A stretch of 64,000 bases of DNA from Streptomyces albogriseolus (GTDB taxonomy: Bacteria > Actinomycetota > Actinomycetes > Streptomycetales > Streptomycetaceae): positions 434,001 through 498,000 of the forward strand of contig BMVA01000004.1 of the NCBI GenBank assembly GCA_014650475.1, written 5' to 3'. Made by a program: the position numbers and the translations under genes. Positions 33,102 through 58,757 of this stretch are shown piece by piece. Every line of letters starts with the position of its first letter. The stretch's first letter is position 1. The notes beneath the pieces were generated by a model. It ran no database searches. It was not told where the DNA came from and worked only from the letters and a program-made list of their open reading frames with translations.

Positions 33102-34580
33102 GTGCGGCAAGGGGGATTGGTCAGCCCGTTCCCGTCGGAGCGGGATCATCTGGCGGACGGGACGTACCACCGGGGGCCGGCCGACTGGGAGCACCGGTAC
33201 CGCCGTACCGTGATCACGAGCGACACGGTGGCGACCGCCGTCGTGGTCGCGGGGATCGGCAACTTCTTCGGCGTCCGTGACGCCGCCAACTGGCACGAGA
33301 AGTGGGGCATCCTCGCCTTCGGCACCTGGTTACTGGTGCTCGGCGCGCTGGCGGTGAGCCGGTCGTGGGCGCCGACCGTGCTGGGCCAGGGCGCCGAGGA
33401 GTTCCGGCGGCTGGGCCGCTCGCTGTTCATGGCGACCGTCGTGCTCGCGCTCGGCGGGATCGCCCTGACCTCACGCAACATCAAACTCTGGATCTTCGTC
33501 GCGGTCCCCGCGATCGCGCTCGTCACCATGACGATGCGCTACCTGCTGCGCCTGTGGCTGCACCGGCAGCGCAAGGAGGGCCGCTGCCTGCGGCCCGTGC
33601 TCGCCGCCGGGAGCCCGGACACGGTGCGCGACCTGATCGCCCGCACCCGCAAGTACCCGCACCTGGGCTGGCGCGTGGACGCCGTGTGCACCACCGACGG
33701 TCCGGGACTCGACGGCGGACGGCTGGACGGGGTGCCGGTGGTGGGCCGGCTGGCGGACGTCGCCGACCACGTCCGCCGCGACGGCTACCGCGTGGTCGCC
33801 GTCACCCCCGACCCGCACTGGTCGCCGGACCGGCTGCAGCGGCTGTCGTGGAACCTGGAGGGCTCCGACGCCGAGATGGTCGTCGCCCCGGTGCTGATGG
33901 AGGTGGCGGGGCCGCGGCTGCACGTCGACGCGGTCCTCGGCATACCGCTGCTGCGGGTCAGCATGCCGGCCTTCACCGGCGGCCGCCGCGCGGTCAAGGG
34001 CGTCGTCGACCGGCTCGGCGCGACGGTCCTGCTGGTGGTGTTCGCGCCGCTGATGCTGCTGGTCGCGCTGCTCGTGGCGACGGACAGCCGGGGCGGGGTG
34101 TTCTACCGGCAGCGCAGAGTCGGCAAGGACGGCCTCGAGTTCACCATCCTGAAGTTCCGCACCATGGTTCCCGACGCGGACCGCGCCCGCGCCGCGCTCA
34201 CCGGCCTCAACGAGGGCGCCGGACCGCTGTTCAAGATGCGCCGCGACCCGCGGGTGACCCGGATCGGGGCGGTGCTGCGCCGCTACTCGCTGGACGAGCT
34301 GCCGCAGCTGTTCAACGTGCTCACCGGGTCGATGTCGCTGGTCGGTCCACGGCCGCCGCTGCCGGAGGAGTGCGCCTCCTACGGCCCGGACATCCGGCGC
34401 CGGCTCAAGGTCAAGCCGGGGCTCACCGGACTGTGGCAGATCAGCGGACGCAGCGACCTTTCGTGGGAGGAGGCGGTCCGCCTGGACCTGCGGTACGTGG
34501 AGGACTGGTCCCTCGCCCTGGACACGGTGATCTTGTGGAAGACGCTGCGCGCCGTGATCCAGGGACAGGGGGCCTACTGA
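33102..34580 (+). CDS. Priming polyprenyl-phosphate sugar-1-phosphate transferase (WcaJ type)
   Basis: 492 residues from a GTG with GGGGGG upstream. The N-terminal half has four or five membrane segments, then a CoA-binding-like domain (about 160-290). A further membrane segment leads to the bacterial sugar transferase domain with VFYRQRRVGKDG, KFRTM and the conserved LPQLFNVLTGSMSLVGPRPPLP. It starts each repeat unit by moving a sugar phosphate onto undecaprenyl phosphate at the inner membrane face. Leu77 is encoded by TTA (33330-33332), so translation should need the bldA tRNA. First gene of the operon. Confidence 0.93.
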   Translation: MRQGGLVSPFPSERDHLADGTYHRGPADWEHRYRRTVITSDTVATAVVVAGIGNFFGVRDAANWHEKWGILAFGTWLLVLGALAVSRSWAPTVLGQGAEEFRRLGRSLFMATVVLALGGIALTSRNIKLWIFVAVPAIALVTMTMRYLLRLWLHRQRKEGRCLRPVLAAGSPDTVRDLIARTRKYPHLGWRVDAVCTTDGPGLDGGRLDGVPVVGRLADVADHVRRDGYRVVAVTPDPHWSPDRLQRLSWNLEGSDAEMVVAPVLMEVAGPRLHVDAVLGIPLLRVSMPAFTGGRRAVKGVVDRLGATVLLVVFAPLMLLVALLVATDSRGGVFYRQRRVGKDGLEFTILKFRTMVPDADRARAALTGLNEGAGPLFKMRRDPRVTRIGAVLRRYSLDELPQLFNVLTGSMSLVGPRPPLPEECASYGPDIRRRLKVKPGLTGLWQISGRSDLSWEEAVRLDLRYVEDWSLALDTVILWKTLRAVIQGQGAY

Positions 34581-34653
34581 TGCGCCGCGCCCGTGGGGCG
34601 GCCGGTGTGCGGACCGCAGGCCGACGGGGCCTGCCCGGGGGGAGGAACGGGTC

Positions 34654-35970
34654 ATGAGAGTCAGCGTGTTCGGGCTCGGCTACGTGGGCTGCGTGTCGGC
34701 CGCGTGCCTGGCCGGCATGGGTCACGAGGTCGTCGGGGTGGACGTCAACCCGGTGAAGGTGGACCTGGTCAACGACGGCAAGGCGCCCGTCGTCGAGGAG
34801 CGGATCGGCGAGCTGATCGCCGAGGTCGTGGGCAGCGGGGCGCTGCGCGCGACCACCGACGTGCGCGAGGCGATCGAGGGCAGCGAGGTGTCCCTGGTCT
34901 GCGTGGGCACCCCGTCGGAGCCCAACGGCAGCCTGTGCACCACCTACTTGGAGCGGGTCACCGAGGAGATCGGCGCGGCGCTGGCCGAGCGGGGCGGGCG
35001 GCACACGGTCGTGTTCCGCTCCACGATGCTGCCGGGCACCTGCCTGGGCCTGCTGGTGCCGATCCTGGAGAAGCACGTCGGCGGCACCGCCGGCGTCGAC
35101 ATCGGTGTGGCGGTCAACCCGGAGTTCCTGCGCGAGGGCACCAGCGTGCGGGACTTCTTCGACCCGCCGAAGACCGTCATCGGCGAACTCGACACGGCGA
35201 GCGGCGACGTCGTCGCGGCGCTGTACGCGGACCTGCCCGGCGAGGTGTTCCGGGTGCCGGTGCCCACGGCCGAGGCGATCAAGTACGCGGACAACGCCTT
35301 CCACGGGCTGAAGATCGGCTTCGCCAACGAGCTGGGCGCGGTGTGCCGGGCGCTCGGGGTGGACTCGCACCAGGTGATGGACGTGTTCGTCGCCGACCGC
35401 AAGCTCAACATCAGCCCCGCCTATCTGCGTCCGGGCTTCGCCTTCGGCGGCTCCTGCCTGCCGAAGGACCTGCGCAGCCTGGTGCACGCGGCGCACCGGG
35501 CCGACGTGTCGGTGCCGATCCTCGCCCACGTCCTGCCGTCCAACGAGGAGCACCTGCAGCGGGCGGTGGAGCTGGTCGAGCGCACCGGGAGGCGCAAGGT
35601 CGGCCTGTTCGGGCTGTCGTTCAAGCCCGGCACCGACGACCTGCGCGAGAGCCCGCTGGTGGAACTGGCGGAGCGGCTCTTCGGCAAGGGGTACGACCTG
35701 CGGATCCACGACGCCAACGTCAGCCTGTCCCGGCTGCTCGGCGCCAACCGCGAGTACATCGAGACCCGGCTGCCGCACCTCGCGCAGCTCCTCGCCGACT
35801 CCGTCGAGGACGTGCTGGACCACGCCGAGGTCGTCCTGGTGGGGACGAAGGACCCGGCCGTGCTGTCGGCGCTGCCGCACGGCGACGCCCCCGTGATCGT
35901 CGACCTCGTCCGCCTCCCCGACGCCGAGGCGCGCCGGGCCGAACCCGGGTACGTGGGCCTTGCTTGGTGA
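34654..35970 (+). CDS. GDP-mannose 6-dehydrogenase-like (AlgD-type) nucleotide-sugar dehydrogenase
   Basis: 438 residues. NAD-binding GLGYVG (7-12), a central helical domain, and the catalytic Cys268 in FAFGGSCLPKDL, the same number as in Pseudomonas AlgD. The C-terminal NAD/UDP-sugar domain has GLSFKPGTDDLRESPLVELAE and GANREYIETRLPHL, which are closer to AlgD than to UDP-glucose dehydrogenases as I remember them. Two NAD-linked oxidations turn the nucleotide sugar into a uronic acid, probably GDP-mannuronate. UDP-glucose is the alternative substrate. Its end overlaps the next gene by 11 bases. Confidence 0.9.
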   Translation: MRVSVFGLGYVGCVSAACLAGMGHEVVGVDVNPVKVDLVNDGKAPVVEERIGELIAEVVGSGALRATTDVREAIEGSEVSLVCVGTPSEPNGSLCTTYLERVTEEIGAALAERGGRHTVVFRSTMLPGTCLGLLVPILEKHVGGTAGVDIGVAVNPEFLREGTSVRDFFDPPKTVIGELDTASGDVVAALYADLPGEVFRVPVPTAEAIKYADNAFHGLKIGFANELGAVCRALGVDSHQVMDVFVADRKLNISPAYLRPGFAFGGSCLPKDLRSLVHAAHRADVSVPILAHVLPSNEEHLQRAVELVERTGRRKVGLFGLSFKPGTDDLRESPLVELAERLFGKGYDLRIHDANVSLSRLLGANREYIETRLPHLAQLLADSVEDVLDHAEVVLVGTKDPAVLSALPHGDAPVIVDLVRLPDAEARRAEPGYVGLAW

Positions 35971-37222
35971 GCCGAAGGGCGCGCGGGGCCGCCGCGCGCT
36001 GATCCTGGTGGAGAACCTGTCGGTGCCGTTCGACCGGCGGGTGTGGCAGGAGTGCCGGACGCTCCGCGACGCGGGCTGGGAGGTCGACGTCATCTGCCCG
36101 CGGGGCGCGAAGCGGGACACCGAGCCGGAGGCCGTGATCGACGGGGTGCGGATCCACCGCTACCCGCTGCGCGCGGCCACCGGAGGACCGGCCGGCTACC
36201 TGAAGGAGTACGGCGCCGCGCTGTGGCACACGGCGCGGCTGGCCCGCAAGGTCGGCCCGGTCGACGTGGTGCACGCCTGCAACCCTCCGGACCTGCTGTT
36301 CCTGCCCGCGCTGCGGCTGAAGCGGCAGGGCGCGAGGTTCGTCTTCGACCAGCACGACCTGGTGCCGGAGCTGTACCTGTCCCGGTTCGGCCGGGGCAAG
36401 GACCTGCTCTACCGGGGTGTGTGCGCGCTGGAGCGGATGACGTACCGGGCGGCGGACGTGGTGCTCGCCACCAACGAGAGCTACAAGGACGTCGCCGTGC
36501 GCCGCGGCGGGCGGCGGCCCGAGGACGTGTTCGTGGTGCGCAGCGCACCGGACACCGAGCGGTTCCACCCGGTGGAGCCGGAGCCGGAGCTGAGGCGCGG
36601 CAAGCCCCATCTGCTGTGCTACCTGGGCGTGATGGGACCGCAGGACGGCGTCGACTACGCGCTGCGGGCGCTGGCGAAGCTCCGTGACGAGCAGGGCCGC
36701 ACCGACTGGCACGCGGTGTTCGTCGGCGGGGGCGACACCTTCGACGCGATGGTGGCGCTGTCCCGGGAGCTGGGGCTCGCGGACCAGGTGGAGTTCACGG
36801 GACGCGTGCCGGACGCCGACCTGGTGCGCTACCTGTCCTCCGCGGACGTGTGCCTCTCCCCCGACCCGTGCAACCCGCTTAACGACGTGTCGACCATGAA
36901 CAAGGTCCTGGAGTACATGGTGATGGGCCGGCCGATCGTCTCCTTCGACCTGAAGGAGGCGCGGGTCTCCGCCGGCGAGGCCGCCGTGTACGCGAAGGGC
37001 GACGACGAGGGCGAGTTCGCCGCGCTCATCGCCCGGCTGCTGGACGACCCCGAACAGCGCTCCCGCATGGGGAAGTCCGGGCAGGAACGGATCAACGGCC
37101 CGCTGGCCTGGCGCAACTCGCAGGCGGCGCTGCTGGCCGCCTACGAGGCCGCCGTCGCGGGCGGCACGGACGCGGGGGCGGCCCGGAACGGGCGGGAAAG
37201 AGGCACGTCCTTTGAACGATGA
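35960..37222 (+). CDS. Glycosyltransferase family 4
   Basis: 420 residues from a TTG start inside the dehydrogenase gene. The first conserved residues (RRALILVENLSVPFDRRVWQE) lie about 10 residues later, so a slightly later start is possible. GT-B fold: the N-domain contains DVVHACNPPDLLFLPAL and FVFDQHDLVPELY. The C-domain has YLGVMGPQDGVDYALRAL, and the sugar-nucleotide site is within the MNKVLEYMVMGRPIVSFDLKE segment. It adds a sugar to the lipid-linked repeat unit in the cytoplasm. Confidence 0.9.
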   Translation: MLGEPKGARGRRALILVENLSVPFDRRVWQECRTLRDAGWEVDVICPRGAKRDTEPEAVIDGVRIHRYPLRAATGGPAGYLKEYGAALWHTARLARKVGPVDVVHACNPPDLLFLPALRLKRQGARFVFDQHDLVPELYLSRFGRGKDLLYRGVCALERMTYRAADVVLATNESYKDVAVRRGGRRPEDVFVVRSAPDTERFHPVEPEPELRRGKPHLLCYLGVMGPQDGVDYALRALAKLRDEQGRTDWHAVFVGGGDTFDAMVALSRELGLADQVEFTGRVPDADLVRYLSSADVCLSPDPCNPLNDVSTMNKVLEYMVMGRPIVSFDLKEARVSAGEAAVYAKGDDEGEFAALIARLLDDPEQRSRMGKSGQERINGPLAWRNSQAALLAAYEAAVAGGTDAGAARNGRERGTSFER

Positions 37223-38579
37223 CGCGATACGCCTGGTCACCATCGGGCGGATGCTCCGCAGGCGCGGCAGGCTGCTGACGGTCCTCGTCGTGCTGGGGGC
37301 GCTGACCGGGTTCGGCGCCTCCCTGGTGTTCCCGCCGCGCTACACCACCTCGGCGTCGGTGCTGCTGCCGGGCGCCTGGGAGGAGCGCGTGCTGCTGACC
37401 CAGGCGGAGATCGCCACCAGCACGGTGGTGACCGACCGCACGGCCGCCGAGCTCGGCTGGGGCGGGGTGGACGGCGAGGAACTGCGCGAGCGGGTGCGCG
37501 CCGAGGTCACCGACGGCAACATCATCGAGATCTCCGGCACCGCCGAGAGCCCCGCGAAGGCGCAGCGGCTCGCCGACGAACTGGCGCGGCAGTTCGTGGC
37601 GTTCTCCGCGCGGATCGTCGACGACACCGCCGACCCGACGGCGGCGGCCGGCCCCGACCGGCTGCGGCAGATGGTGCTCACCACCAGCCGCCGCATCACC
37701 GAGCTGGCCGACGCCGCCGACCCCGGCCGGACCGTGGAGAGCGTGCAGACCCGCACCGAGCTGGCGAAGCTGCGCACCGCGCTGCAGGAGGCGGTCGGGA
37801 AGCTGAGCCAGGCCGACTCGAACGCGGCCGGCTCCCGGCTGGTCGTCATGGGTCCGGCGGCCAGGCCGTCCGGTGAGGCCCCGCCGACGCGGGTGCAGCT
37901 GATCGCCGCCGGGGCGGTGCTGTTCTTCCTGCTGGCGGTCGTCGGGCATCTCGCCGCGGCCCGGGGGAACCGCCGGCCGCGCTCCGAGCGGGAGATCGCC
38001 GCCGCGCTCGGGTCCGGGCTGCTGGGCGGCGTCGACGTCGCCGCCCGGCGGGGCGCGCACCGGCCGGAGGGCGGCGGCGCCCGGCACCGGGTCCGCCGGC
38101 TGCTGGGCCTGGACACGCCGTGGAACGCACCGGCCCCGCCGGCCGCCGGGGACGAGGCGAGCCTGGGGATCCGGTACCGGCGGGTGTGCGGCCGGATCCG
38201 CGACCTGGTGCCGGGCGCGCGGCGTCTGCTGCTCGTCGTGGCCGACGACGACTCCGTCGCCCTGCGGGCCGCCGAGCGGCTGGCGGACGAGGCCGGGGGC
38301 GACCCGCTGCTGCGGGTGACGGTGGTCTCCGCCGAGGCGCCGCTGGTGCCGGACCGTGCGGAGGAGTCGGGCGTCCTGGTCGTGCTGAGCGCGGGCACCC
38401 GCACCGCCGCCGAGCTGGCCGGCGTCGCCGAGGCGTGCGCGGACGCGGGCCACGACGTCGTCGGCATCGTCCTGGCCGACGCGGTCCGGACCCGTCCGGC
38501 ACGGTCCGCCGGCCCGCCGCGGGAGGCCGCCGCACCGGCGCTCGCCCTCGGCGACGGCGCCCGGGGAGGTGTGCGATGA
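37212..38579 (+). CDS. Wzz-like membrane protein with decayed kinase-like domain (first copy)
   Basis: 455 residues from a TTG with AGAGG upstream. It overlaps the glycosyltransferase by 11 bases. Two membrane segments (about 22-42 and 233-255) flank an extracytoplasmic helical region, as in Wzz/YveK chain-length proteins. After the second segment a cytoplasmic alpha/beta region, ARRLLLVVADDDSVALRAAERLADEA, resembles a tyrosine-kinase ATPase, but there is no Walker A GKS/T and no Tyr-rich tail. It probably sets polymer length or organises the export complex without kinase activity. Confidence 0.75.
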   Translation: MNDDAIRLVTIGRMLRRRGRLLTVLVVLGALTGFGASLVFPPRYTTSASVLLPGAWEERVLLTQAEIATSTVVTDRTAAELGWGGVDGEELRERVRAEVTDGNIIEISGTAESPAKAQRLADELARQFVAFSARIVDDTADPTAAAGPDRLRQMVLTTSRRITELADAADPGRTVESVQTRTELAKLRTALQEAVGKLSQADSNAAGSRLVVMGPAARPSGEAPPTRVQLIAAGAVLFFLLAVVGHLAAARGNRRPRSEREIAAALGSGLLGGVDVAARRGAHRPEGGGARHRVRRLLGLDTPWNAPAPPAAGDEASLGIRYRRVCGRIRDLVPGARRLLLVVADDDSVALRAAERLADEAGGDPLLRVTVVSAEAPLVPDRAEESGVLVVLSAGTRTAAELAGVAEACADAGHDVVGIVLADAVRTRPARSAGPPREAAAPALALGDGARGGVR

Positions 38580-40129
38580 CGAGTGCCACGGCCGAGCCGA
38601 CGGCCGCCGCTCCCCTGCTGGATCTGCAGGCCCTGACGGTGTCGGTGCGCAGACGCCGCCGCCTGTGGGGCTCCCTGGCGCTGCTGGGGCTGCTGATCGG
38701 GGTGGCGGTGGCGGTGCTGCTGCCCCCGCCGCCGACCGCCGTGACCAAGGTGCTGGTCGCCCACCAGGACGACCAGCCGAACGACCCCGGCACGCTGATC
38801 CGCACCGACGTGGCGCTGCTGCACACCACGCGGATCGCCGACGCGGCCCTGACGTCCCTCGGCTCCTCGGTGAGCGCCGAGGACTTCATGGAGGACTACG
38901 AGGGCGCCGGCCTGACCAACAACCTGCTGGAGATCAAGGCCACGGGCGGGACCGGCGAGGAGGCGGTGGCCCGCGCCGGCGCGGTGGCCGAGGCGTTCGT
39001 CGCGGACCATGTGCGGCGGATCAAGCAGGCCGCGGCCGCCGACGCCTCGACCCTGCTCGCGCAGCGCGACCGCATGCAGAAGGAACTCGACGAGGTGAAC
39101 GAGGCGATCGGGGACGGGCCGCCGGAGGGCAGCCCGGAAGAGTCGGCGAACCTGGAGACGCTGTTCGCCCGCCGCGCCGAACTCAGCTCCCGCATCAGCG
39201 ACTTCTCGCAGCGGGCGGCGGAGGCCCGGGTGGGCACGCCCCGGCTGGTCGCGGGCACGCAGATCGTCGACGCCCCGCGCCTCCTGAAGCACTCGCTGCC
39301 GCAGGCCGTCGCCGCCAACGGCGGCATCGGGCTGGTCCTCGGCCTGGTGCTGGGCCTGGTGGTCGCCGCGGTCGCCTCGGTGGTGGGCGACCGCCCGGTG
39401 CTGCGGCGGGACGTCGCGCGCCATCTGGGCGCCTCGGTCACCGCCGAGCTGTCCGGTTCCGCGCTGCGGCCGGGCCTGCTGTGGCGGCGCCGGCGCAGGC
39501 GTGCGGCGCGGACCCGGCTCGCCTCGTCGCTGGCCCGTACGGTGCGCGCTTCCGCGGAGCCGCTGGCGCTGCTGGAGCTGGGCTGTCCGCGCGGCGCGGG
39601 CGTGATCGCCCTGGACCTGGCGCGGACGCTGGCGGCGGACGAGCCGGTGGCCGTGGTCGACGCCCTGCCCCGGCACGGTCTCGCCGGCCGCCGCGCCAAG
39701 CAGGGCGACCCGGAGGTGGTCGGGGTGGAGCGGGCCGCGGCCCTGCCGTCCGACCGGCGCCGGATCGGCGTGGCCTCGGTGGCGCCCGGCGCGGCCTGGT
39801 CCGACCTCCCCGGCCTGGCCGGGCGGGCCGTGCTGGTGGTGGCGGCCGGGCACGGCACCACCGCGTGGCTGCACACGGTGGCGCGGCAGCTCGCGGACCG
39901 GCGGGTGGAGGTGGCCGGCGTGGTGCTGGTCGACCCGGATCCGCGGGACCGGACGGACGGGACGCTGTGGGACGGGCCGTTCCCGGTGCCGCGCGTCCGT
40001 GAGGGGCGGCCGGCCCGGCAGCACGGCGGGAGCCCCACCGTCCAGGCCGTGGGCGAGGGTCCGCGGCGTACGGAAAGGCTGCCGATGTGGGCGGCGCGGG
40101 TCCCGGACAGCGACCAGGAGGCGCGGTAG
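38576..40129 (+). CDS. Wzz-like membrane protein with decayed kinase-like domain (second copy)
   Basis: 517 residues. The ATG overlaps the previous stop (ATGA). Membrane segments are near 36-55 and 248-272, with a coiled-coil region between (QRDRMQKELDEVNEAI). The C-terminal part is laid out like a Wzc/CpsD ATPase: LLELGCPRGAGVIALDLARTLA in the Walker A place, VAVVDALP in the Walker A' place, then AVLVVAAGHGTTAWLHTVARQLADRRVEVAGVVLVD. The P-loop Lys is missing and the tail has no Tyr cluster. Likely a non-catalytic copolymerase subunit paired with the first copy. Confidence 0.75.
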   Translation: MTSATAEPTAAAPLLDLQALTVSVRRRRRLWGSLALLGLLIGVAVAVLLPPPPTAVTKVLVAHQDDQPNDPGTLIRTDVALLHTTRIADAALTSLGSSVSAEDFMEDYEGAGLTNNLLEIKATGGTGEEAVARAGAVAEAFVADHVRRIKQAAAADASTLLAQRDRMQKELDEVNEAIGDGPPEGSPEESANLETLFARRAELSSRISDFSQRAAEARVGTPRLVAGTQIVDAPRLLKHSLPQAVAANGGIGLVLGLVLGLVVAAVASVVGDRPVLRRDVARHLGASVTAELSGSALRPGLLWRRRRRRAARTRLASSLARTVRASAEPLALLELGCPRGAGVIALDLARTLAADEPVAVVDALPRHGLAGRRAKQGDPEVVGVERAAALPSDRRRIGVASVAPGAAWSDLPGLAGRAVLVVAAGHGTTAWLHTVARQLADRRVEVAGVVLVDPDPRDRTDGTLWDGPFPVPRVREGRPARQHGGSPTVQAVGEGPRRTERLPMWAARVPDSDQEAR

Positions 40130-40132
40130 CTC

Positions 40133-42070: not shown

Positions 42071-42086
42071 AGACAAGAGGAACTCC

Positions 42087-46216: not shown

Positions 46217-46225
46217 GGGGCTGCG

Positions 46226-50315: not shown

Positions 50316-51547
50316 CACGTTGCCGACTGTGCGGTTCGACGGCGCTGGAGAGCGTCGTCGACCTGGGGGCGACCCCGCCGTGCGAGAGCTTTCTCGCCGC
50401 GGAGCACCTGGACGCGCCGGAGCCGGCGTACCCGCTGCACCTGCGGGTGTGCACGGACTGCTGGCTGGCGCAGATCCCGCCGCTGATCACGCCGGAGGAG
50501 ACGTTCAGCGAGTACGCGTACTTCTCGTCGTACTCCTCCTCCTGGGTGGAGCACGCGCGCGTGTTCGTCGAGGACGCGGCGGCGCGGCTGGGGCTCGGCG
50601 AGGACTCCTTCGTGGTGGAGGTGGCGAGCAACGACGGCTATCTGCTGCGGCACGTGCTCGACCGGGGCGTGCGCTGCCTGGGGGTCGAGCCGTCGGTGAA
50701 CGTCGGCGCGGCGGCGCGGGAGGCGGGCGTGCCCACGCTCACCGCGTTCCTGAGCCCTGAGACGGGCGCGGCGGTGCGCGCCGAGCACGGGCCGGCCGAC
50801 CTGGTGGTCGCCAACAACGTGTACGCGCACATCCCGGACGTCATCGGCTTCACGCAGGGGCTGCGCGCCCTGGTCGCCGACGACGGCTGGGTCTCGATCG
50901 AGGTGCAGCACCTGCTGACCCTGATCGAGGAGAACCAGTACGACACGATCTACCACGAGCACTTCCAGTACTACACGGTCGCCTCCGCGATCCGGGCGCT
51001 GGCGAGCGGCGGGCTGGCCCTGGTGGACGTGGAGCTGCTGCCCACGCACGGCGGTTCGCTCAGGCTCTGGGCGCGGCCCGAGGAGGCGGCCGGGGAGCCG
51101 GGCCCGCGGGTGGCCGACGTGCTCGCCCGGGAGAAGGCCGCCGGGCTCCAGGAGCTGTCCGGGTACACCGAGTTCTCCGCCCGGGTGGCCAAGGTGCGCC
51201 GGGACCTGCTGCGGTTCCTGGTCGACGCGGCCGAGCGGGGCGAGACGGTCGTCGGGTACGGCGCGCCGGGCAAGGGCAACACGCTGCTCAACCACTGCGG
51301 GATCCGGCCCGACCTGCTGCCGTACACGGTGGACCGCAACCCGTACAAGCACGGCCGGTACACGCCGGGCACGCGCATCCCGATCCTGCCGCCCGACCGG
51401 ATCGCCGCGGACCGGCCGGACTACGTGCTGGTGCTGCCGTGGAACCTGCGCGCCGAGCTGACCGAGCAGCTGGCGTACGTGCACGAGTGGGGCGGCCGGC
51501 TGGTCTTCCCCATCCCGGAACTGAGCATTGTCGAGGTCGAGCGATGA
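50312..51547 (+). CDS. SAM-dependent sugar C-methyltransferase family protein
   Basis: 411 residues with the three-part layout of NDP-hexose C-methyltransferases such as TylCIII. The N-terminal zinc-binding CRLCG and CTDCW are followed by EYAYFSSYSSSW. The SAM domain has VVEVASNDGYLLRHVLDRG, and DTIYHEHFQYYT carries the catalytic Tyr/His region. The C-terminal domain has VVGYGAPGKGNTLLNHCGI. These enzymes methylate C3 of 4-keto sugars. Here the substrate would be the CDP- or dTDP-linked sugar made by its neighbours. Coupled to both flanking genes by ATGA overlaps. Confidence 0.88.
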   Translation: MTRCRLCGSTALESVVDLGATPPCESFLAAEHLDAPEPAYPLHLRVCTDCWLAQIPPLITPEETFSEYAYFSSYSSSWVEHARVFVEDAAARLGLGEDSFVVEVASNDGYLLRHVLDRGVRCLGVEPSVNVGAAAREAGVPTLTAFLSPETGAAVRAEHGPADLVVANNVYAHIPDVIGFTQGLRALVADDGWVSIEVQHLLTLIEENQYDTIYHEHFQYYTVASAIRALASGGLALVDVELLPTHGGSLRLWARPEEAAGEPGPRVADVLAREKAAGLQELSGYTEFSARVAKVRRDLLRFLVDAAERGETVVGYGAPGKGNTLLNHCGIRPDLLPYTVDRNPYKHGRYTPGTRIPILPPDRIAADRPDYVLVLPWNLRAELTEQLAYVHEWGGRLVFPIPELSIVEVER

Positions 51548-52344
51548 AGGTCGTACTGTTCTGCGGCGGTTACGGGCTGCGCATGCGCGCCGGGGCGAAC
51601 GACGACATCCCCAAGCCCATGGCGATGGTCGGCCCGCGCCCGCTGATCTGGCACGTGATGCGCTACTACGCGCACTTCGGGCACAAGGAGTTCATCCTGT
51701 GCCTGGGCTACGGCGCCCACCACATCAAGGAGTTCTTCCTCACCTACGAGGAGACCACCTCCAACGACTTCGTGCTGCGCGGCGGCCGCACCGAGCTGCT
51801 GTCCACCGACATCGCGGACTGGACCATCACGTTCGCGCAGACCGGCATCGAGTCGCCCATCGGGGAGCGGCTGCGCCGGGTGCGGCACCATCTGGACGGC
51901 GACGAGATGTTCCTCGCCAACTACGCGGACGTGCTCACCGACGCCCCGCTGCCGGAGATGATCGAGAAGTTCTCCCGCCGGGACGCGGGCGCGTCGATGA
52001 TGGTGGTGCCGCCGCAGTCGTCGTTCCACTGCGTGGAGCTGGGCCAGGACGGCCTGGTGGGCGGCATCACCGCGGTGAGCGAGCTGCCGCTGTGGGAGAA
52101 CGGCGGCTACTTCGTGCTGCGCCAGGAGATCTTCGACCACATCCCCGAGAACGGGGATCTCGTCGCCGACGGGTGTGGCCAACTGGCCAAGCGGGGAAGG
52201 CTCGTCGCGCACCAGCACCGCGGTTTCTGGAAGCCGACCGACACCGTGAAGGAGCGTGCGGCGCTGGACGAGGCCTACGCCCGGGGGGACCGGCCGTGGG
52301 CCGTGTGGGAGCGGGAGCGTACGGGGACGGGGGTGAGCGCGTGA
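51544..52344 (+). CDS. Glucose-1-phosphate cytidylyltransferase-like nucleotidyltransferase
   Basis: 266 residues, about the RfbF/DdhA length. The start KVVLFCGGYGLRMRAGANDDIPKPMAMVGPRPLIWHVMRYYAHFGHKEFILCLGY matches the family, including the signature GGxGxRM and the KP pair. It would form CDP-glucose from glucose-1-phosphate and CTP. A second metal or substrate segment, FLANYADVLTD, is present. The usual partner, a CDP-glucose 4,6-dehydratase, is not obvious in the operon. It overlaps its neighbours by 4 bases on each side. Confidence 0.88.
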   Translation: MKVVLFCGGYGLRMRAGANDDIPKPMAMVGPRPLIWHVMRYYAHFGHKEFILCLGYGAHHIKEFFLTYEETTSNDFVLRGGRTELLSTDIADWTITFAQTGIESPIGERLRRVRHHLDGDEMFLANYADVLTDAPLPEMIEKFSRRDAGASMMVVPPQSSFHCVELGQDGLVGGITAVSELPLWENGGYFVLRQEIFDHIPENGDLVADGCGQLAKRGRLVAHQHRGFWKPTDTVKERAALDEAYARGDRPWAVWERERTGTGVSA

Positions 52345-52988
52345 TCCGGCTGGGAACCGGGCGTCTCGAGCGGGTCGTCGCGGTGGGCGCGCACTGCGAC
52401 GACATCGCCATCGGCGCCGGCGGCACCCTGCTGACCCTGTGCCGGGCCCGCCCGGGCCTCAGGGTCGACGCGCTGGTGCTGTCCGGCGGCGGCACGGAGC
52501 GCGAGCAGGAGGAGCAGGAGGCGCTCGCCGCGTTCTGCCCGGGCGCCGACCTGCGGCTGACCGTCGACAAGATGCCCGACGGGCGGCTGCCCGCGCACTG
52601 GACGGAGGCCAAGGCCGCCGTCGAGGAGCTGCGTGCCCGTACCGAGCCCGACCTGGTGCTCGCCCCGCGCACCGAGGACGCGCACCAGGACCACCGCGGT
52701 CTGGCGAAGCTGATGACCACCGCGTTCCGCGACCATCTCGTGCTCGGCTACGAGATCGTCAAGTGGGACGGGGACCTGGGCCGTCCCGTGGTGTACCAGC
52801 CGCTGGCCCCGGACACCGCCGAGGACAAGGTGCGTCTGCTGCAGGAGCACTACCCCTCGCAGCGGCACCGGCCCTGGTACGACCGGGAGGCCTTCCTCGG
52901 GCTCGCCCGGATCCGGGGCATCGAAAGCAACGCGCGCTACGCCGAGGCGTTCGCCGTCACCAAACTCACTGTCGACCTGGGGGGTTGA
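52341..52988 (+). CDS. PIG-L family deacetylase
   Basis: 215 residues from a GTG overlapping the previous stop. Zinc-site motif VVAVGAHCDDIAIGAGGTL (the AHxDD pattern) near residue 15 and a second His pair in EDAHQDHRGLAKL near residue 115 are both intact. Relatives such as MshB and GlcNAc-PI deacetylase remove acetyl groups from amino sugars. Here an N-acetyl sugar nucleotide, lipid-linked sugar or polymer repeat could be the substrate. No signal peptide, so it acts in the cytoplasm. Confidence 0.88.
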   Translation: MIRLGTGRLERVVAVGAHCDDIAIGAGGTLLTLCRARPGLRVDALVLSGGGTEREQEEQEALAAFCPGADLRLTVDKMPDGRLPAHWTEAKAAVEELRARTEPDLVLAPRTEDAHQDHRGLAKLMTTAFRDHLVLGYEIVKWDGDLGRPVVYQPLAPDTAEDKVRLLQEHYPSQRHRPWYDREAFLGLARIRGIESNARYAEAFAVTKLTVDLGG

Positions 52989-52992
52989 AACC

Positions 52993-54018
52993 TTGCGCGT
53001 ACTGCTCACCGGACACCAGGGCTATCTGGGCACCGTGATGGCCCCGGTGCTCACGGCCGCCGGACACGAGGTCGTCGGGCTGGACGCCGGCCTGTTCGCC
53101 GACTGCGTGCTGGGGCCGACTCCCGCGGACCCTCCGGGGACGCGGGTGGACCTGCGGGACGTCACGGCCGGCCATGTGGCCGGGGTGGACGCCGTGATCC
53201 ACCTGGCCGCCCTGTCCAACGACCCGCTGGGGGCGCTGGCGCCGGAACTCACCTACGACATCAACCACCACGCGTCCGTGCGGCTGGCGAAGCTGGCCCG
53301 CGACGCGGGGGTGCGGCGCTTCCTGTACGCCTCGACCTGCTCGGTCTACGGCGCGGCGGGCGGTGACGAACTGGTGGCCGAGGACGCCCCGCTGCGCCCG
53401 GTGACGCCGTACGCCGAGTCCAAGGTGCGGGTGGAGGACGACCTGCACGAGCTGGCCGACGACGACTTCAGCCCGGTGTACATGCGCAACGCGACCGCCT
53501 TCGGGTACTCGCCGCGGCTGCGCGCCGACATCGTGCTGAACAACCTGGTCGGGCACGCCCTGCTGTCCGGCGAGGTGCTGGTGCTGTCCGACGGCACGCC
53601 GTGGCGCCCGCTGGTGCACGCCGCGGACATCGCCCGCGCGTTCACGGCCGCCCTCGAGGCGCCGCGGGAGGCGGTGCACGACCGGGCGTTCAACATCGGC
53701 AGCGAGACCAACAACGTCACGGTCGCGGAGATCGCCCAGCAAGTCGCGGACGCGGTGGACGGCTCCAAGGTGGTCATCACCGGGGAGACGGGCGCCGACC
53801 CGCGCTCCTACCGGGTGGACTTCTCCCGGTTCCGGGCGGCGATCCCCGGCTTCGCGTGCGAGTGGACGGTGAAGCGGGGCGCGCTGGAACTCGCCGACGC
53901 CTACCGGGCGCACGGGCTGACCCGGGAGGCGTTCGAGCAGCGGTTCACCCGGCTCGCCGTGCTGCGCGCCGCGTCCGACGCGGGCACGGTCGACGACACC
54001 CTGCGGTGGCGGTCGTGA
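52993..54018 (+). CDS. NAD-dependent epimerase/dehydratase family (extended SDR)
   Basis: 341 residues from a TTG with GGGGGG upstream. NAD-binding TGHQGYLG (about 6-13), HLAALSNDPL, the active-site ASTCSVYG and PYAESKVRVEDDL (the YxxxK pair). The STCS sequence replaces the STDE of sugar 4,6-dehydratases, so epimerase or ketoreductase activity is more likely than 4,6-dehydration. It follows the deacetylase by 4 bp and overlaps the DUF4910 gene. The substrate is presumably the CDP-linked sugar. Confidence 0.85.
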   Translation: MRVLLTGHQGYLGTVMAPVLTAAGHEVVGLDAGLFADCVLGPTPADPPGTRVDLRDVTAGHVAGVDAVIHLAALSNDPLGALAPELTYDINHHASVRLAKLARDAGVRRFLYASTCSVYGAAGGDELVAEDAPLRPVTPYAESKVRVEDDLHELADDDFSPVYMRNATAFGYSPRLRADIVLNNLVGHALLSGEVLVLSDGTPWRPLVHAADIARAFTAALEAPREAVHDRAFNIGSETNNVTVAEIAQQVADAVDGSKVVITGETGADPRSYRVDFSRFRAAIPGFACEWTVKRGALELADAYRAHGLTREAFEQRFTRLAVLRAASDAGTVDDTLRWRS

Positions 54019-55289
54019 CCACGCCGGGCGAGGAGATGCACGCCCTGGTGGAGCGGATGTACCCGCTCTGCCGGAGCATCACCGGCGACGGGGTGCGCGC
54101 CACCCTGGACGTCGTCGGCGGGCATCTGCCGCTGGAGGTGCACGAGGTGCCCACCGGGACGCAGGTGCTGGACTGGACGGTGCCGCAGGAGTGGAACGTC
54201 CGGGAGGCGTGGATCGCCGACCCCTCCGGGCGGCGGGTCGTCGACCTCGCCGACTCCAGCCTGCACGTGCTCGGGTACAGCGTGCCGGTGGCGGCGCGGA
54301 TGCCCCTGTCCGCGCTGCGCCCGCATCTGCACACGCTGCCCGAGCACCCGAAGTGGGTGCCGTACCGCACCAGTTACTACAAGCCGGACTGGGGGTTCTG
54401 TCTCGCGCAGGAGACCCTGGACGCGCTGCCGGACGGCGAGTACGAGGTGCGGATCGACTCCACCCTCGCGGACGGGCACCTCACCTACGCCGAGCACGTG
54501 GTGCCGGGGCAGGTGCCCGACGAGGTGATCGTCTCCAGTCACGTCTGCCACCCGTCGCTGGCCAACGACAACCTGGCCGGCATCGCGGTGGCGGTGTTCC
54601 TCGCCCGGTCGCTCGCCCGGGGCACGCCGTACTACACGTACCGGTTCCTGTTCGCGCCCGGCACCATCGGGGCGATCACCTGGCTGGCCCGCAACGCCGG
54701 CCGGGTGGAGCGGGTGAAGCACGGTCTTGTGCTGGCCTGCGCGGGTGACCGGGGCTCGCTGACCTACAAGCGCAGCAGGCGCGGGGACGCGGAGATCGAC
54801 CGGGTGACGCGGTACGTGCTGGAGACCTCCGGACGCCCGCACGAGATAAGGGAGTTCACCCCGTACGGCTACGACGAGCGGCAGTTCTGCTCGCCGGGCT
54901 TCGACCTCGGTGTGGGCTCGCTCAGCCGGACCCCGTACGCCGGCTACCCGGAGTACCACACCTCGGCGGACGACCTGGACTTCGTGACGCCGGAGGCGAT
55001 GGAGGACACCCTCGCCGTCTGCCGGGAGGTGTGCGCCGTGCTCGACCGCAACCGGCGGTACGTCAACCTCAGCCCGTACGGGGAGCCGCAGCTGGGCCGG
55101 CGGGGGCTCTACGGGGCGCTCGGCGGCCGCAGCGACGCGCAGGAGGCCCAGATGGCGATGCTGTGGGTGCTCAGCCTCTCCGACGGCGAGCACGGTCTGC
55201 TGGACGTGGCCGAGCGGGCCGGTCTGCCGTTCGACGCCGTCGTCGCGGCGGCCGACGCCCTGCACGGGGCCGGGCTGGTCAAGGCGTGA
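54015..55289 (+). CDS. DUF4910 aminopeptidase-like protein
   Basis: 424 residues. An N-terminal DUF2172-like part, then a Zn-peptidase-like core with SSHVCHPSLANDNLAGIAVAVFLA (His, Asp and Asn metal ligands), a later CAGDRGSLTYKRS and PEYHTSADDLDFV with another His/Asp. The C-terminus (about 360-424) resembles a small winged helix. DUF4910 proteins look like M28 aminopeptidases but recur in sugar-nucleotide operons, where hydrolysis of an amide on a sugar has been suggested. No signal peptide. Overlaps both neighbours by 4 bases. Confidence 0.85.
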   Translation: MTTPGEEMHALVERMYPLCRSITGDGVRATLDVVGGHLPLEVHEVPTGTQVLDWTVPQEWNVREAWIADPSGRRVVDLADSSLHVLGYSVPVAARMPLSALRPHLHTLPEHPKWVPYRTSYYKPDWGFCLAQETLDALPDGEYEVRIDSTLADGHLTYAEHVVPGQVPDEVIVSSHVCHPSLANDNLAGIAVAVFLARSLARGTPYYTYRFLFAPGTIGAITWLARNAGRVERVKHGLVLACAGDRGSLTYKRSRRGDAEIDRVTRYVLETSGRPHEIREFTPYGYDERQFCSPGFDLGVGSLSRTPYAGYPEYHTSADDLDFVTPEAMEDTLAVCREVCAVLDRNRRYVNLSPYGEPQLGRRGLYGALGGRSDAQEAQMAMLWVLSLSDGEHGLLDVAERAGLPFDAVVAAADALHGAGLVKA

Positions 55290-56596
55290 CGCCGATGGCC
55301 ACCGAGGGGGACAGGACGACGACGCCGGCGGCGCGCCCGGCCCGCACCGTCACGCGGGCCGTCGCGGGCCGCCTGTCGTGGGGGCTCGCCGACCAGGCGG
55401 CCTCCAGCCTGTCCAACTTCGCCGTGGGCGTGTACGTGGCGCGCTCGCTGGGACTGACCGCGTTCGGCGTGTTCAGCCTGGCCTGGGTGACCTACGGCGT
55501 GGTGCTCAGCGTCTCCCGCGGTCTGGCCACCGATCCGCTCGTGGTGCGGTTCAGCGGCGTGCCCGAGGCGTCCTGGCGGCCGGCGGTGTCCCGCTCCACG
55601 GGCACCTCGCTGGGCGTCGGCGCGGTCATCGGCACGCTGTGCGTGGCGTCCTGGCCGCTGCTCGGCGGCAGCGTGGGGGCCGCTTTCGCCTGCCTCGGCG
55701 TGGTGTTGCCCGGGCTGCTGCTCCAGGACGCCTGGCGGTACTCGTTCTTCGCGGCCGGCGTCGGCCGGAAGGCGTTCGTCAACGACGTGGTGTGGGGCGT
55801 GGCGCTGATTCCCGCCCTGGTCGTGGCGGCGCGGGCGGGCACCGTGCCCGCGTTCGTGCTCGCCTGGGGCGGCTCGGCCGCGGTGGCGGCGGCGTACGGC
55901 TGGGCGCAGTCCGGCATCCGGCCCCGGCTCACCGGGGCCCGGCTGTGGATCCGCGACCACCGTGACCTCGGCTACCGGTACCTGGCCGAGAACACCTGCG
56001 TGAGCGGCGCGGGCCAGCTGCGCGCGTACGGGCTCGGCGCCATCGTCGGCGTCGGCGCGGTCGGCGTCGTCCGGGGCGCCGAGCTGCTGCAGGGTCCGTT
56101 CCTGGCCGTGCTGATGGGGCTGACGCTGGTCACCGTGGCCGAGGCGGCGCGGATGCTGCGGCAGGCCCCGCACCGGCTCGGCCGGTTCTGTCTGCTGCTG
56201 GGCGGCGGTCAGGCGGTCGCCGCCCTGCTGTGGGGCGGTGTGCTGCTGCTGATGCCGGACCGGGCGGGCGAGCTGGTCCTCGGCGACGTCTGGCCCGCCG
56301 CCAAGGAACTCATCGTTCCGGCCACCCTCGGTGTCGCGGGGGCCGGTGTCGGTACCGGAGCGGCCGCCGGGCTGCGCGCGCTCGGCGCGGCCCGGCTCAG
56401 TCTCCGGTGCCAGATCTTCGCCTCCGTGTGCTACGTCGGCCTCGGCATCGGCGGTGCGGCCCTCGGCGGCACCGTCGGCTCGGCCTGGGGCGCCGCCGCC
56501 GCTTCCGTGTGCGGTTCGGCCGCGTGGTGGCTGCACCTGAGGATCGCACTGCGCGAGCACCACCGAGAACTCATCCGTGAAGTGAGGACGTCATGA
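55286..56596 (+). CDS. Polysaccharide flippase-like membrane protein (Wzx)
   Basis: 436 residues with about twelve membrane segments and no soluble domain. The pattern of an oligosaccharide flippase is seen, with GRLSWGLADQAASSLSNFAVGVYVARSLGLTAFGVFSLAW at the start. It would move the lipid-linked repeat unit to the outer face for polymerisation by the Wzy-like protein. GTG at 55286 overlaps the previous stop. ATG at 55295 is an alternative start. It is the only flippase candidate in the operon. Confidence 0.85.
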   Translation: MTPMATEGDRTTTPAARPARTVTRAVAGRLSWGLADQAASSLSNFAVGVYVARSLGLTAFGVFSLAWVTYGVVLSVSRGLATDPLVVRFSGVPEASWRPAVSRSTGTSLGVGAVIGTLCVASWPLLGGSVGAAFACLGVVLPGLLLQDAWRYSFFAAGVGRKAFVNDVVWGVALIPALVVAARAGTVPAFVLAWGGSAAVAAAYGWAQSGIRPRLTGARLWIRDHRDLGYRYLAENTCVSGAGQLRAYGLGAIVGVGAVGVVRGAELLQGPFLAVLMGLTLVTVAEAARMLRQAPHRLGRFCLLLGGGQAVAALLWGGVLLLMPDRAGELVLGDVWPAAKELIVPATLGVAGAGVGTGAAAGLRALGAARLSLRCQIFASVCYVGLGIGGAALGGTVGSAWGAAAASVCGSAAWWLHLRIALREHHRELIREVRTS

Positions 56597-57540
56597 CCGC
56601 GCAACCACGGCTGAGCATCGGCCTTCCCGTGTACAACGGCGAGGAGTACCTCGCCGAGTCGCTGGAGGCCCTGCTCGGCCAGACGTACGAGGACTTCGAG
56701 TTGGTCATCACCGACAACGCGTCGACCGACGGGACCCAGGACATCTGCCGCCGCTACGCCGCGCGGGACTCCCGGATCCGGTACATCCGGCTGTCCCGGA
56801 ACATCGGCGCCGCGCCGAACCACAACTACGTCTTCACCCAGTGCCGCGGCGAGCTGTTCAAGTGGGCCTCGCACGACGACCTGTACGCCCGTGACCTGCT
56901 GAAGCGCTGCGTGGAGGCGCTGGACGAGCGTCCTGACGTGATCCTCGCGCACAGCGACCAGGCCGTCATCGACGCCGACGGCACGATCAAGGTGCCCTAC
57001 GCGTACACGCTGAACACCGGCTCGCCGCACGCGCCCGAGCGCTTCCGCAGCCTGCTGTTCGAGCCCGGCGGCGACGACTTCTACGGCGTGATCCGCGCCG
57101 ACGTGCTGCGCCGGGTCAGGCCCCACGACAGCTACCACCACGCGGACCGCACCTTCGTTGCCGAGATCACCCTGCACGGCCCCTTCCACCAGGTGCCCGA
57201 GCTGCTGTACTTCCGCCGCGACCACCCCACCCGCGCCGAGCGGGCCAACCCCTCCAAGCGCGCCCGCTGCGTCAACCTGGACCCGCGCCGCGCCGGCCCG
57301 CTGCACCCGACGCCCCGGCTGCTCGCCGAGTACGTGTGGGGGTTCGTCTCGGCCGTCCGGCGGGCGCCGCTGTCCCCGGCCGACCGGCGCGCCTGCTACC
57401 GGCATCTCGCCGCGTGGGCGACCAGCCGGGTCCGGCCGGGCGCCGGCGAGCGCGTCGAGGACCGGGCCCCGGTGGACCCGGCCGCGTCGGCCGTCTCCGT
57501 GGACGCCCTGGTCGCCGGCCGCGAGAGGGGTGGCGCGTGA
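56593..57540 (+). CDS. Glycosyltransferase family 2
   Basis: 315 residues. GT-A fold: LSIGLPVYNGEEYLAESLEALLGQTYEDFELVITDNASTDGTQDI at the start and the metal-binding segment KWASHDDLYARDLL. A C-terminal extension of about 100 residues, Arg/Ala-rich, may associate with the membrane. It adds a sugar to the growing repeat unit. It overlaps its neighbours on both sides by 4 bases. Confidence 0.92.
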   Translation: MTAQPRLSIGLPVYNGEEYLAESLEALLGQTYEDFELVITDNASTDGTQDICRRYAARDSRIRYIRLSRNIGAAPNHNYVFTQCRGELFKWASHDDLYARDLLKRCVEALDERPDVILAHSDQAVIDADGTIKVPYAYTLNTGSPHAPERFRSLLFEPGGDDFYGVIRADVLRRVRPHDSYHHADRTFVAEITLHGPFHQVPELLYFRRDHPTRAERANPSKRARCVNLDPRRAGPLHPTPRLLAEYVWGFVSAVRRAPLSPADRRACYRHLAAWATSRVRPGAGERVEDRAPVDPAASAVSVDALVAGRERGGA

Positions 57541-58757
57541 CGTCTCCCCGGGTGGGCCTCTTCGGTCTGTTCGGCTCCGGGAACGTCGGCAACGACGGCT
57601 CGCTGGTGGCCTTGCTGGACCATCTGCGCACGGCCCGCCCGGGCGCGGAGGTGGACGCCCTGTGCGGCGGCCCCGAGACCGTCACGGCCCGGTACGGCAT
57701 ACCGGCGGCCCGGCTGCACTGGTTCCGCGGCGAGTACCGCACGGCCGCGGGCCCGGGCGACATCGCGGGCAAGGGCGTGGGCAAACTCGTGGACGCCTTC
57801 CGCATCGCCGCCTGGGTGCGCCGGCACGACGTGGTAATTGTGCCCGGCACCGGCATCCTGGAGAGCACCCTGCCGCTGCGGCCCTGGGGCATGCCGTACT
57901 CGCTGTTCCTGGTGTGCGCGGCCGGACGGCTGCTGCGCACCCCGGTCGCGCTGGTCGGCGTCGGGGCGTCCGAGACCGGCAGCCGGCCGGTGCGGGCGCT
58001 GACCCGTTGGGCGGCGCGGCTGGCCGCGTACCGGTCGTACCGGGACACGCTGTCGCGGGACGCGATACGGGCGATGGGCGTGGACACCCGGCGCGACGAG
58101 GTGTACGCGGACCTGGTGTTCACCCTGCCCACTCCCCCGCCGGGTGACTCCTCGGGGCCGCCCGGACCGGTGTGCGTGGGCGTCATGGACTTCGGCGGCA
58201 GCAACGACGAACGGGACCGGGCGGACGAACTGCGCCGCCGCTACCTGGACGGCATGACGCGGTTCGTGCGCGCGCTGGCCGCGGAGGGCAGGCCGGTGCG
58301 GTTGCTCACCGGCGACGACGTGGACCGGCCGGTGACCGAGGCGATCCTCGAGGCGGTGGACTCGCCGCTGGTCACCGCCGCCGCGACGGCGTCGCTGGGC
58401 GACCTGATGAAGGAGATGGCGGTCGCGGACACCGTGGTGGCGACCCGCTACCACAACCTGGTGTGCGCGCTGAAGGTCGGCACCCCGGCGCTCGCCGTGA
58501 GCTACGCGGCGAAGAGCGACCGGCTGATGGCCGACATGGGGCTGGGCGAGCACTGCCACCCGGCGCGGGAGATCGACGCGGGCCGGCTGCTGGAGCAGTT
58601 CCGCGCGCTGGAGCGGGACCGGGCGGCGGTCCGGCGGACCCTCACCGAACGCAACCCGGTGCTGGCCGAGCGCGTCCGCCGGCAGTTCGAGGCGCTGAAC
58701 CCCCTGTTACCGGCGTCCGGCGCCGCCCCCGACCACGCACGACAGGAGACCCCATGA
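57537..58757 (+). CDS. Polysaccharide pyruvyl transferase family protein
   Basis: 406 residues. PF04230 pattern: GLFGLFGSGNVGNDGSLVALLDHL at the N-terminus, DVVIVPGTGILES in the middle, and ATRYHNLVCALKVGTPALAVSYAAKSDRLMADMGLG near 300-340 with the conserved RxH. It transfers pyruvate from phosphoenolpyruvate to form a ketal on a sugar, adding negative charge. Leu391 is encoded by TTA (58707-58709), so the product depends on the bldA tRNA for its last 16 residues. Confidence 0.88.
   Translation: MTSPRVGLFGLFGSGNVGNDGSLVALLDHLRTARPGAEVDALCGGPETVTARYGIPAARLHWFRGEYRTAAGPGDIAGKGVGKLVDAFRIAAWVRRHDVVIVPGTGILESTLPLRPWGMPYSLFLVCAAGRLLRTPVALVGVGASETGSRPVRALTRWAARLAAYRSYRDTLSRDAIRAMGVDTRRDEVYADLVFTLPTPPPGDSSGPPGPVCVGVMDFGGSNDERDRADELRRRYLDGMTRFVRALAAEGRPVRLLTGDDVDRPVTEAILEAVDSPLVTAAATASLGDLMKEMAVADTVVATRYHNLVCALKVGTPALAVSYAAKSDRLMADMGLGEHCHPAREIDAGRLLEQFRALERDRAAVRRTLTERNPVLAERVRRQFEALNPLLPASGAAPDHARQETP

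Follow-up and report, generated by a model that had tools for sequence, protein, structure and literature searches.

In-frame TTA codons in a Streptomyces polysaccharide operon and a possible bldA gate at its first two genes

We analysed a 64,000-nucleotide stretch of the Streptomyces albogriseolus genome (assembly GCA_014650475.1, contig BMVA01000004.1, positions 434,001 to 498,000; hereafter 'the window'), which holds a Streptomyces extracellular or cell-surface polysaccharide operon. A previous sequence-only reading had proposed that two TTA codons, read by the leucine tRNA encoded by bldA, gate this operon. Discussion of bldA control usually centres on regulators, adpA among them, and on the genes of antibiotic production. 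Sequence comparison of orthologous operons, partly corrected for relatedness, indicates that TTA has been kept or regained at shifting sites in the first two genes of the operon, far beyond the other rare leucine codons.

The operon and its two in-frame TTA codons

The operon comprises 21 genes on the forward strand (Table 1), at approximately 33102–60636, separated by gaps of −13 to 73 bp. Ten of the 20 gene junctions overlap and the largest gap lies between genes 1 and 2. The sequence-only reading was therefore right about the tight linkage by overlaps and short gaps, but the range that it gave, ending at 58757, was too short, as two more genes follow. Gene calls were made with a simple codon-usage gene caller (55 genes in the whole window); where it placed the starts of genes 1 and 19 at TTG 33117 and GTG 57552, GTG 33102 and GTG 57537 were used instead, which leaves the counts unaffected. 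The first of these is a GTG in all 80 named relatives (one codon later in locus L139) and in 59 of the 61 orthologous operons described below; the reading frame is identical over the 18 codons compared in the 80 relatives, and the DNA just 5' of the start varies in length. Among the 21 genes Pfam names a single DNA-binding-type domain, the C-terminal winged helix encoded by gene 16.

Six TTA triplets occur within genes on the forward strand of the operon, of which four (36879, 40945, 51570 and 54374) are out of frame. The remaining two, in genes 1 and 19, are in frame where the sequence-only reading had placed them, and its statement that there are only two holds across all 21 genes. Three of the 55 genes called in the window contain TTA: besides genes 1 and 19, a short gene predicted on the minus strand (21473–21934) has one in frame at codon 147 of 153. 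As a background, 30 segments of 20 kb were sampled from this genome; TTA was present in 10 of their 506 called genes and accounted for 14 of 164,519 codons. A tRNA-Leu with anticodon TAA was found in the genome, in agreement with the premise that TTA is rare and needs a bldA-type tRNA.

Gene 1 was matched at 80% identity or above in 111 of 295 same-genus genomes (its own included), the closest named loci being those of S. cellulosae JCM 4462 (96%) and S. werraensis JCM 4860 (94%), and in an order-wide sample at E 1e-120 or better in 95 of 293 genomes, 94 of which are congeneric with the window's, the remaining one belonging to a different genus in the family. The pyruvyl transferase encoded by gene 19 was matched in 112 of the 295 same-genus genomes at E 1e-60, mostly on the same contig and approximately 24 kb from gene 1. 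Six of the pyruvyl transferase matches are marked as spanning one or two in-frame TGA codons (G016, G084, G180, G205, G222 and G292).

Among 30 gene 1 copies, the window's own included, 13 carry a TTA at some position, and only those of the window's genome (G000) and G027 carry it at codon 77; among 30 pyruvyl transferases, again with the window's own, TTA391 is limited to the window's genome, G132 and G027. Larger sets gave the same picture, with TTA77 in three of 101 gene 1 orthologs (G000, G027 and G223) and two of 80 named loci (L132 and L153), and with Leu77 encoded by TTA in two and Leu391 in three (G000, G132 and G027) of the 61 operons. Codon 77 is TTA, TTG (G132) or CTG (L131) in the nearest relatives, and the C-terminal tail of gene 19 that contains codon 391 is variable among the copies compared. 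Sequencing error is unlikely for either codon, because TTA77 recurs in G027 and in the S. werraensis locus L132 (possibly one species) and TTA391 in G132 and G027. Both codons of the window are real yet shallow, and since each is confined to a few lineages they are not a conserved gate.

Table 1. Features of the polysaccharide operon and its upstream region in the window
Feature	Position	Strand	Basis or remark
Leader or promoter region 5' of gene 1, non-coding and conserved	32690..33101	+	Alignment of 95 orthologs
Gene 1, priming sugar-phosphate transferase (SCO0381 position)	33102..34580	+	Pfam Bac_transf 3.4e-66, CoA_binding_3
Gene 1 codon 6	33117..33119	+	TTG in window; TTA in 23/61 orthologous operons
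In-frame TTA, Leu77 of gene 1	33330..33332	+	Codon 77 counted from GTG 33102
Gene 2, UDP-glucose/GDP-mannose dehydrogenase, without TTA in window	34654..35970	+	Pfam
Gene 3, GT4 glycosyltransferase (SCO0383 position)	36008..37222	+	Pfam
Genes 4 and 5, Wzz-like chain-length proteins (gene 4 below Pfam cut-off)	37212..40129	+	Pfam
Gene 6, asparagine-synthase-like amidotransferase	40133..42070	+	Pfam
Gene 7, two-domain oxidoreductase	42087..44276	+	Pfam
Gene 8, heparinase II/III-like	44273..46216	+	Pfam
Genes 9 and 10: beta-helix protein; O-antigen-ligase-like protein (sub-threshold in Pfam)	46247..49049	+	Pfam
Genes 11–14: GT4; C-methyltransferase; no Pfam family; PIG-L deacetylase	49050..52988	+	Pfam
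Genes 15–18: NAD epimerase; DUF4910 protein with C-terminal winged helix; no Pfam family; GT2	53035..57540	+	Pfam
Gene 19, polysaccharide pyruvyl transferase (SCO0399 position)	57537..58757	+	Pfam PS_pyruv_trans 2.3e-24, residues 16–323
In-frame TTA, Leu391 of gene 19	58707..58709	+	Codon 391 from GTG 57537; 16 codons before stop
Genes 20 and 21: RmlC-like epimerase; class-III aminotransferase	58754..60636	+	Pfam; junctions (4-base overlap at each start)

TTA codons across orthologous operons

We compared the window with 60 operons from the other 110 genomes that match gene 1 (61 operons in all; gene 21 is mostly partial, with two of 48 copies above 90% of its length, gene 9 is present in 60 and above 90% in 47, and gene 10 is above 90% in 51). 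TTA is found in gene 1 of 35 operons, at nine distinct sites, and in gene 2 of 28, at five distinct sites (codon 64 in 22 of them), and in gene 19 of four, at two sites. Taken together, genes 1 and 2 contain 75 TTA in 56,834 codons and genes 3–21 contain 34 in 472,758, a difference of approximately 18-fold (Fisher 8e-47, uncorrected for kinship), with the frequency in genes 3–21 near the genome background. A count of distinct sites, less sensitive to common ancestry than raw codon counts, gives 14 sites in 930 codons for genes 1 and 2 versus 21 in 8,165 for genes 3–21 (P 4e-6). TTA occurs in 54 of the 101 gene 1 orthologs, 40 of which have one within their first 15 codons, and in gene 1 of 46 of 80 and gene 2 of 35 of 79 named loci; the named loci overlap the species set of the operons and orthologs and are a repeat rather than independent data. 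A TTA shared by the same gene across orthologs, as looked for in a bldA-type gene, is thus seen for gene 1 and not for gene 19. The proposal that gene 1 acts as the gate is borne out to the extent that orthologous operons hold TTA in this gene far above background; the exact codons on which it was based belong to few lineages.

The sites are dispersed. Beyond the conserved stretch at the gene 1 start, which includes codon 6, they include codons 77, 129, 149, 283 and 420 of gene 1 and codons 64, 194, 273 and 379 of gene 2, and six of the 13 operons that have TTA in gene 1 and lack it at gene 2 codon 64 have a TTA at another position of gene 2 (P 3e-6 relative to background, uncorrected for kinship). 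The locus of S. viridochromogenes DSM 40736 (L144) has TTA at both codon 6 and codon 10 of gene 1. Recurrent TTA codons were also observed at gene 8 codon 332 (8 of 61 operons) and gene 6 codons 640–643 (7 of 61), always in operons with TTA in gene 1.

Usage of the other rare leucine codons was tabulated for the same genes. In the 35 TTA-bearing operons, TTA makes up 19.6 of every 1000 leucine codons in gene 1, 16.3 in gene 2 and 0.85 in genes 3–20; the corresponding values, in the same order, are 3.5, 4.9 and 2.7 for CTA, 34, 29 and 32 for TTG, and 23, 42 and 14 for CTT, the last being similar in TTA-free operons (16, 39 and 13). Relaxed codon usage or an A/T bias was considered as a source of the TTA codons and found insufficient, with TTA raised approximately 20-fold, as compared with no more than 1.8-fold for CTA and TTG and 3-fold for CTT.

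The states of genes 1 and 2 are strongly associated. TTA is present in both genes in 28 operons, in neither in 26, in gene 1 only in seven and in gene 2 only in none (P 4e-11), and the association persists without codon 6: among the 38 operons lacking TTA there, gene 2 contains TTA in eight of the 12 with a TTA elsewhere in gene 1 versus none of the 26 without (P 1e-5). The corresponding numbers for the named loci (n=79) are 33, 32, 12 and two. The state of the first two genes is also reflected further downstream. Operons with TTA in gene 1 or 2 hold 32 TTA in 271,092 codons of genes 3–21 (in 24 of 35 operons), and those without it hold two in 201,666 codons (in two of 26, G132 and G246), as against 17 predicted from the background of the window's genome, so that TTA is apparently not neutral in this operon. 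S. coelicolor, if its TTA codons lie in genes 3 and 19 as given in PMC2000904, is a further exception to this two-state pattern.

On a quick tree built from genes 5, 8, 9, 10, 17 and 18, the gene 1 state requires 11 changes, nine of them forced by supported branches, versus approximately 20 with shuffled labels, and is therefore partly inherited. Sister genomes can nonetheless be of opposite state, as are G007 and G032, and G059 and G103. Loss of bldA as the cause of the TTA-free operons is unsupported, since all 295 genomes match the window's tRNA-Leu(TAA) to some degree, in a survey made by sequence match to that tRNA. The best match is weak in six of them (G030, G113, G130, G135, G139 and G168; E 6e-5 to 7e-4), where the tRNA may be diverged or absent from the assembly; none of the six contributed an operon to the set of 61.

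The region upstream of gene 1 is conserved as well. An alignment of 95 orthologs contains one strongly conserved block approximately 320–410 bp upstream and another directly before and across the GTG, and the block beside the start is recognisable even in the outgroup locus L371. A search of the leader against Rfam returned no plausible family, its one match being at chance level, inside gene 1 and on the opposite strand (18 bits versus a cut-off of 70). The consensus folding energy is −4.5 to −6.3, versus −0.2 to −0.3 for shuffled columns; a folded leader is not claimed, since most of the pair changes are one-sided. Consensus promoters and terminators were absent from 32224–36100 in a test that is uninformative for Streptomyces. 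Contigs end less than 200 bp upstream of gene 1 in nine of 80 named loci (L138, L141, L165, L167, L171, L186, L201, L206 and L207), and likewise in at least seven of the 111 gene 1 matches; a G-rich hairpin or repeat upstream of gene 1 may be what breaks these assemblies.

A probable bldA gate and its alternatives

We consider it probable that TTA codons in its first two genes restrict efficient translation of the operon, in many species, to times of plentiful bldA tRNA, late in growth or during development. Selection might have favoured such a gate at the committed steps, which would be the loading of the lipid carrier (gene 1) and the synthesis of an activated sugar (gene 2). A ribosome waiting at UUA would then lower what follows it in the message, through polarity or decay of the mRNA, by analogy with a proposal for the S. 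coelicolor cluster SCO0381-0401. In PMC2000904 (2007), that cluster was described as 21 genes, perhaps one operon, with TTA codons in SCO0383 and SCO0399. In a bldA mutant, four of its five detected proteins were reduced two-fold or more and the products of SCO0400 and SCO0401, which directly follow SCO0399, were absent; polarity combined with message destabilisation was proposed. The gate with polarity suggested by the sequence-only reading had thus already been put forward from bldA-mutant data, and the idea is a rediscovery, at new codons, of that published proposal.

For the lineage of the window itself, gating by TTA77 is plausible but unproven, because TTA is missing from the sites most often used (gene 1 has TTG at codon 6, and gene 2 has no TTA at all) and site 77 is a rare one. 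The suggestion that TTA391 puts pyruvylation under separate control is doubtful, since this codon lies close to the stop and beyond the Pfam domain of the protein, and the start of gene 20 overlaps the end of gene 19 by four bases. A TTA at the end of gene 19 would be expected to damp genes 20 and 21, and it is most likely on these two genes, rather than on pyruvylation alone, that TTA391 acts.

We also entertain, as a tentative possibility that we rate below the gate itself, that two selected states exist across Streptomyces: a 'gated' state, with TTA in both genes 1 and 2, where a lost codon is replaced at a new site, and an 'ungated' state, in which the entire 27 kb are kept TTA-free. There would have been many switches between them, and the lineage of the window would be re-entering the gated state via codon 77 and gene 19. 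If so, single-codon changes at the first two steps would move a whole polymer pathway in and out of bldA control.

Several observations weigh against a bldA gate at genes 1 and 2 or limit its reach. The count of two TTA codons in 21 genes is within chance for this genome (0.77 expected in the operon's 9,095 codons; the probability of two or more is 0.18 by codons and 0.064 by genes), so that, set against the rest of the genome, the operon of the window cannot be called enriched. Among tree-independent pairs of operons that differ in gene 1, gene 2 differs in the same way in approximately five, in the opposite way in none and not at all in approximately four (median P 0.06), a result that is suggestive of coupling between the two genes, not proof, and that implies that much of the raw significance is due to shared descent. 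The gate is unnecessary for persistence of the operon, as 26 of 61 operons lack TTA in both genes; the single outgroup genome (G503) lacks it too, which is too little to root the history. Genes 1 and 2 are also 1.7- to 3-fold richer in CTT, and in TTA-free operons gene 1 holds more CTA than genes 3–20 (9.6 versus 1.9 per 1000 leucine codons). Codon 6 of gene 1 lies within a conserved stretch and reads NTA in 44 of 61 operons, so that part of the TTA at this codon may follow another constraint. Finally, if TTA in S. coelicolor is limited to SCO0383 and SCO0399 (PMC2000904) and the cluster is nevertheless affected by bldA, gene 1 is not the sole possible gate, or the effect is indirect. A second source, Table 2 of PMC4255298 (2013), lists orthologs of SCO0381, SCO0382 and SCO0383 as TTA-bearing in 6 of 12, 5 of 9 and 2 of 10 genomes, and the lack of an asterisk on these entries would mean that all three have TTA in S. 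coelicolor; the two papers disagree on this point.

Three other explanations were weighed. The TTA codons of the window may be rare-codon noise that has arisen by neutral drift and has no effect on timing, with the genus-wide gate operating in other lineages. The count of two against 0.77 expected, being within chance, is in keeping with this, as are the alternation of TTA, TTG and CTG at codon 77 in the closest relatives, the lack of TTA in gene 2 of the window and the position of TTA391, limited to three of 61 operons, in a variable tail. TTA77 is also present, however, in the more distant relatives G223 (83% identity) and L153, and drift does not predict the near absence of TTA from genes 3–21 of operons that lack it in genes 1 and 2 (two versus 17 expected); we regard it as somewhat unlikely. 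The TTA codons of genes 1 and 2 might instead be by-products of local base composition or of a conserved DNA or RNA element unrelated to bldA. In support of this, codon 6 of gene 1 falls in the conserved stretch GGGGGANTAGTC, in which the TA is mostly kept and the first base varies, and CTT is somewhat raised in both genes. Against it, TTA is up 19- to 23-fold in operons where CTA and TTG rise no more than 1.8-fold and CTT no more than 3-fold, many of the gene 1 and gene 2 sites are far from the codon 6 stretch, and the coupling to gene 2 survives removal of that codon, all of which makes a by-product quite improbable.

The main rival is transcriptional. AdpA, whose own gene is TTA-bearing (in 14 of the 14 Streptomyces in Table 2 of PMC4255298), could activate the operon late, leaving the TTA codons of the operon incidental. 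Genes of the cluster are down in an adpA deletion of S. lividans (eight fold changes of 0.31–0.61; PMC4021200), and the two leading genes, which precede those given as TTA-bearing in PMC2000904, showed a non-significant reduction in mRNA in the bldA mutant of S. coelicolor. The S. coelicolor cluster is also strongly down in a SCO4117 mutant (six genes listed; PMC5826349), and an afsS mutant shows a smaller rise of the cluster in stationary phase. The effects of the adpA, SCO4117 and afsS mutants point to transcriptional control layered on top of any gate. Activation by AdpA leaves unexplained both the enrichment of TTA in genes 1 and 2 of the 61 operons and its recurrence at shifting sites, and exact matches to the AdpA consensus were absent from 32224–33101 and numbered five in the window, versus 6.9 expected. 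We therefore judge it unlikely that AdpA accounts for the pattern to the exclusion of a gate. The prediction that the polymer is made late fares accordingly: all 21 genes of the S. coelicolor cluster are up in the second mycelium (log2 0.8 to 4.0; PMC3610822), as expected of late synthesis, but AdpA offers an alternative route to that timing.

Should the operon indeed be gated at its first two committed enzymes, with single-codon changes removing and restoring the gate, it would constitute a natural experiment, in which species of opposite state could be compared for the timing of polymer production. The comparison also suggests that conservation of TTA is better judged per gene or per operon than per codon position alone.

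Comparison with SCO0381-0401 and amf/ram clusters

The operon of the window resembles SCO0381-0401, the 'deoxysugar/glycosyltransferase cluster' of S. coelicolor (PMC2000904, PMC3610822), which likewise consists of 21 genes in one likely operon, in a functional order that matches that of the window when Pfam families are set against published products. The shared order begins with a glycosyl transferase, a dehydrogenase, a second glycosyl transferase and two exopolysaccharide-transport proteins, and continues with an asparagine synthetase, a bi-domain oxidoreductase and, further along, an epimerase and an aminotransferase. This assignment is by gene order and function. All 21 products were taken from PMC3610822, six of them also from PMC5826349 and those of SCO0392, SCO0395, SCO0400 and SCO0401 from PMC2000904; for genes 13 and 17, which have no Pfam family, and for several S. 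coelicolor products listed as hypothetical, the agreement is by position only. Gene 19 (SCO0399) carries TTA in both systems (PMC2000904 for S. coelicolor), whereas the first TTA gene is gene 3 (SCO0383) in S. coelicolor, according to the same paper, and gene 1 in the window. The spacing also differs: the largest gap in S. coelicolor, 102 bp between genes 6 and 7, corresponds to 16 bp in the window, whose own maximum, 73 bp, lies between genes 1 and 2.

The TTA frequencies found here for gene 1 (54 of 101 orthologs) and gene 2 (28 of 61 operons) can be set beside those of PMC4255298 for SCO0381 and SCO0382. According to PMC10327506, most TTA codons are poorly conserved, and 18 orthogroups carry a TTA, irrespective of its position, in half or more of the 213 species analysed. 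The available text of these two papers does not describe site turnover, coupling between genes 1 and 2 or a nearly TTA-free state, which are described here, and a literature search for Streptomyces exopolysaccharide clusters with a pyruvyl transferase returned nothing relevant among the papers it listed. As far as the literature searched shows, two features are new: the turnover of sites in the first two genes and their nearly all-or-none pattern.

A shifting gate is not without parallel. Most of the amf/ram clusters, which produce SapB, have TTA in one of two genes, ramC or the ramR-like gene (PMC4255298), which implies that the gate moves between genes of the cluster. The operon of the window is like these clusters in that a TTA gate would shift among its genes, and differs from them in that amf/ram is a morphogenetic peptide cluster with a regulator gene of its own, whereas the TTA codons of the polysaccharide operon lie in biosynthetic genes.

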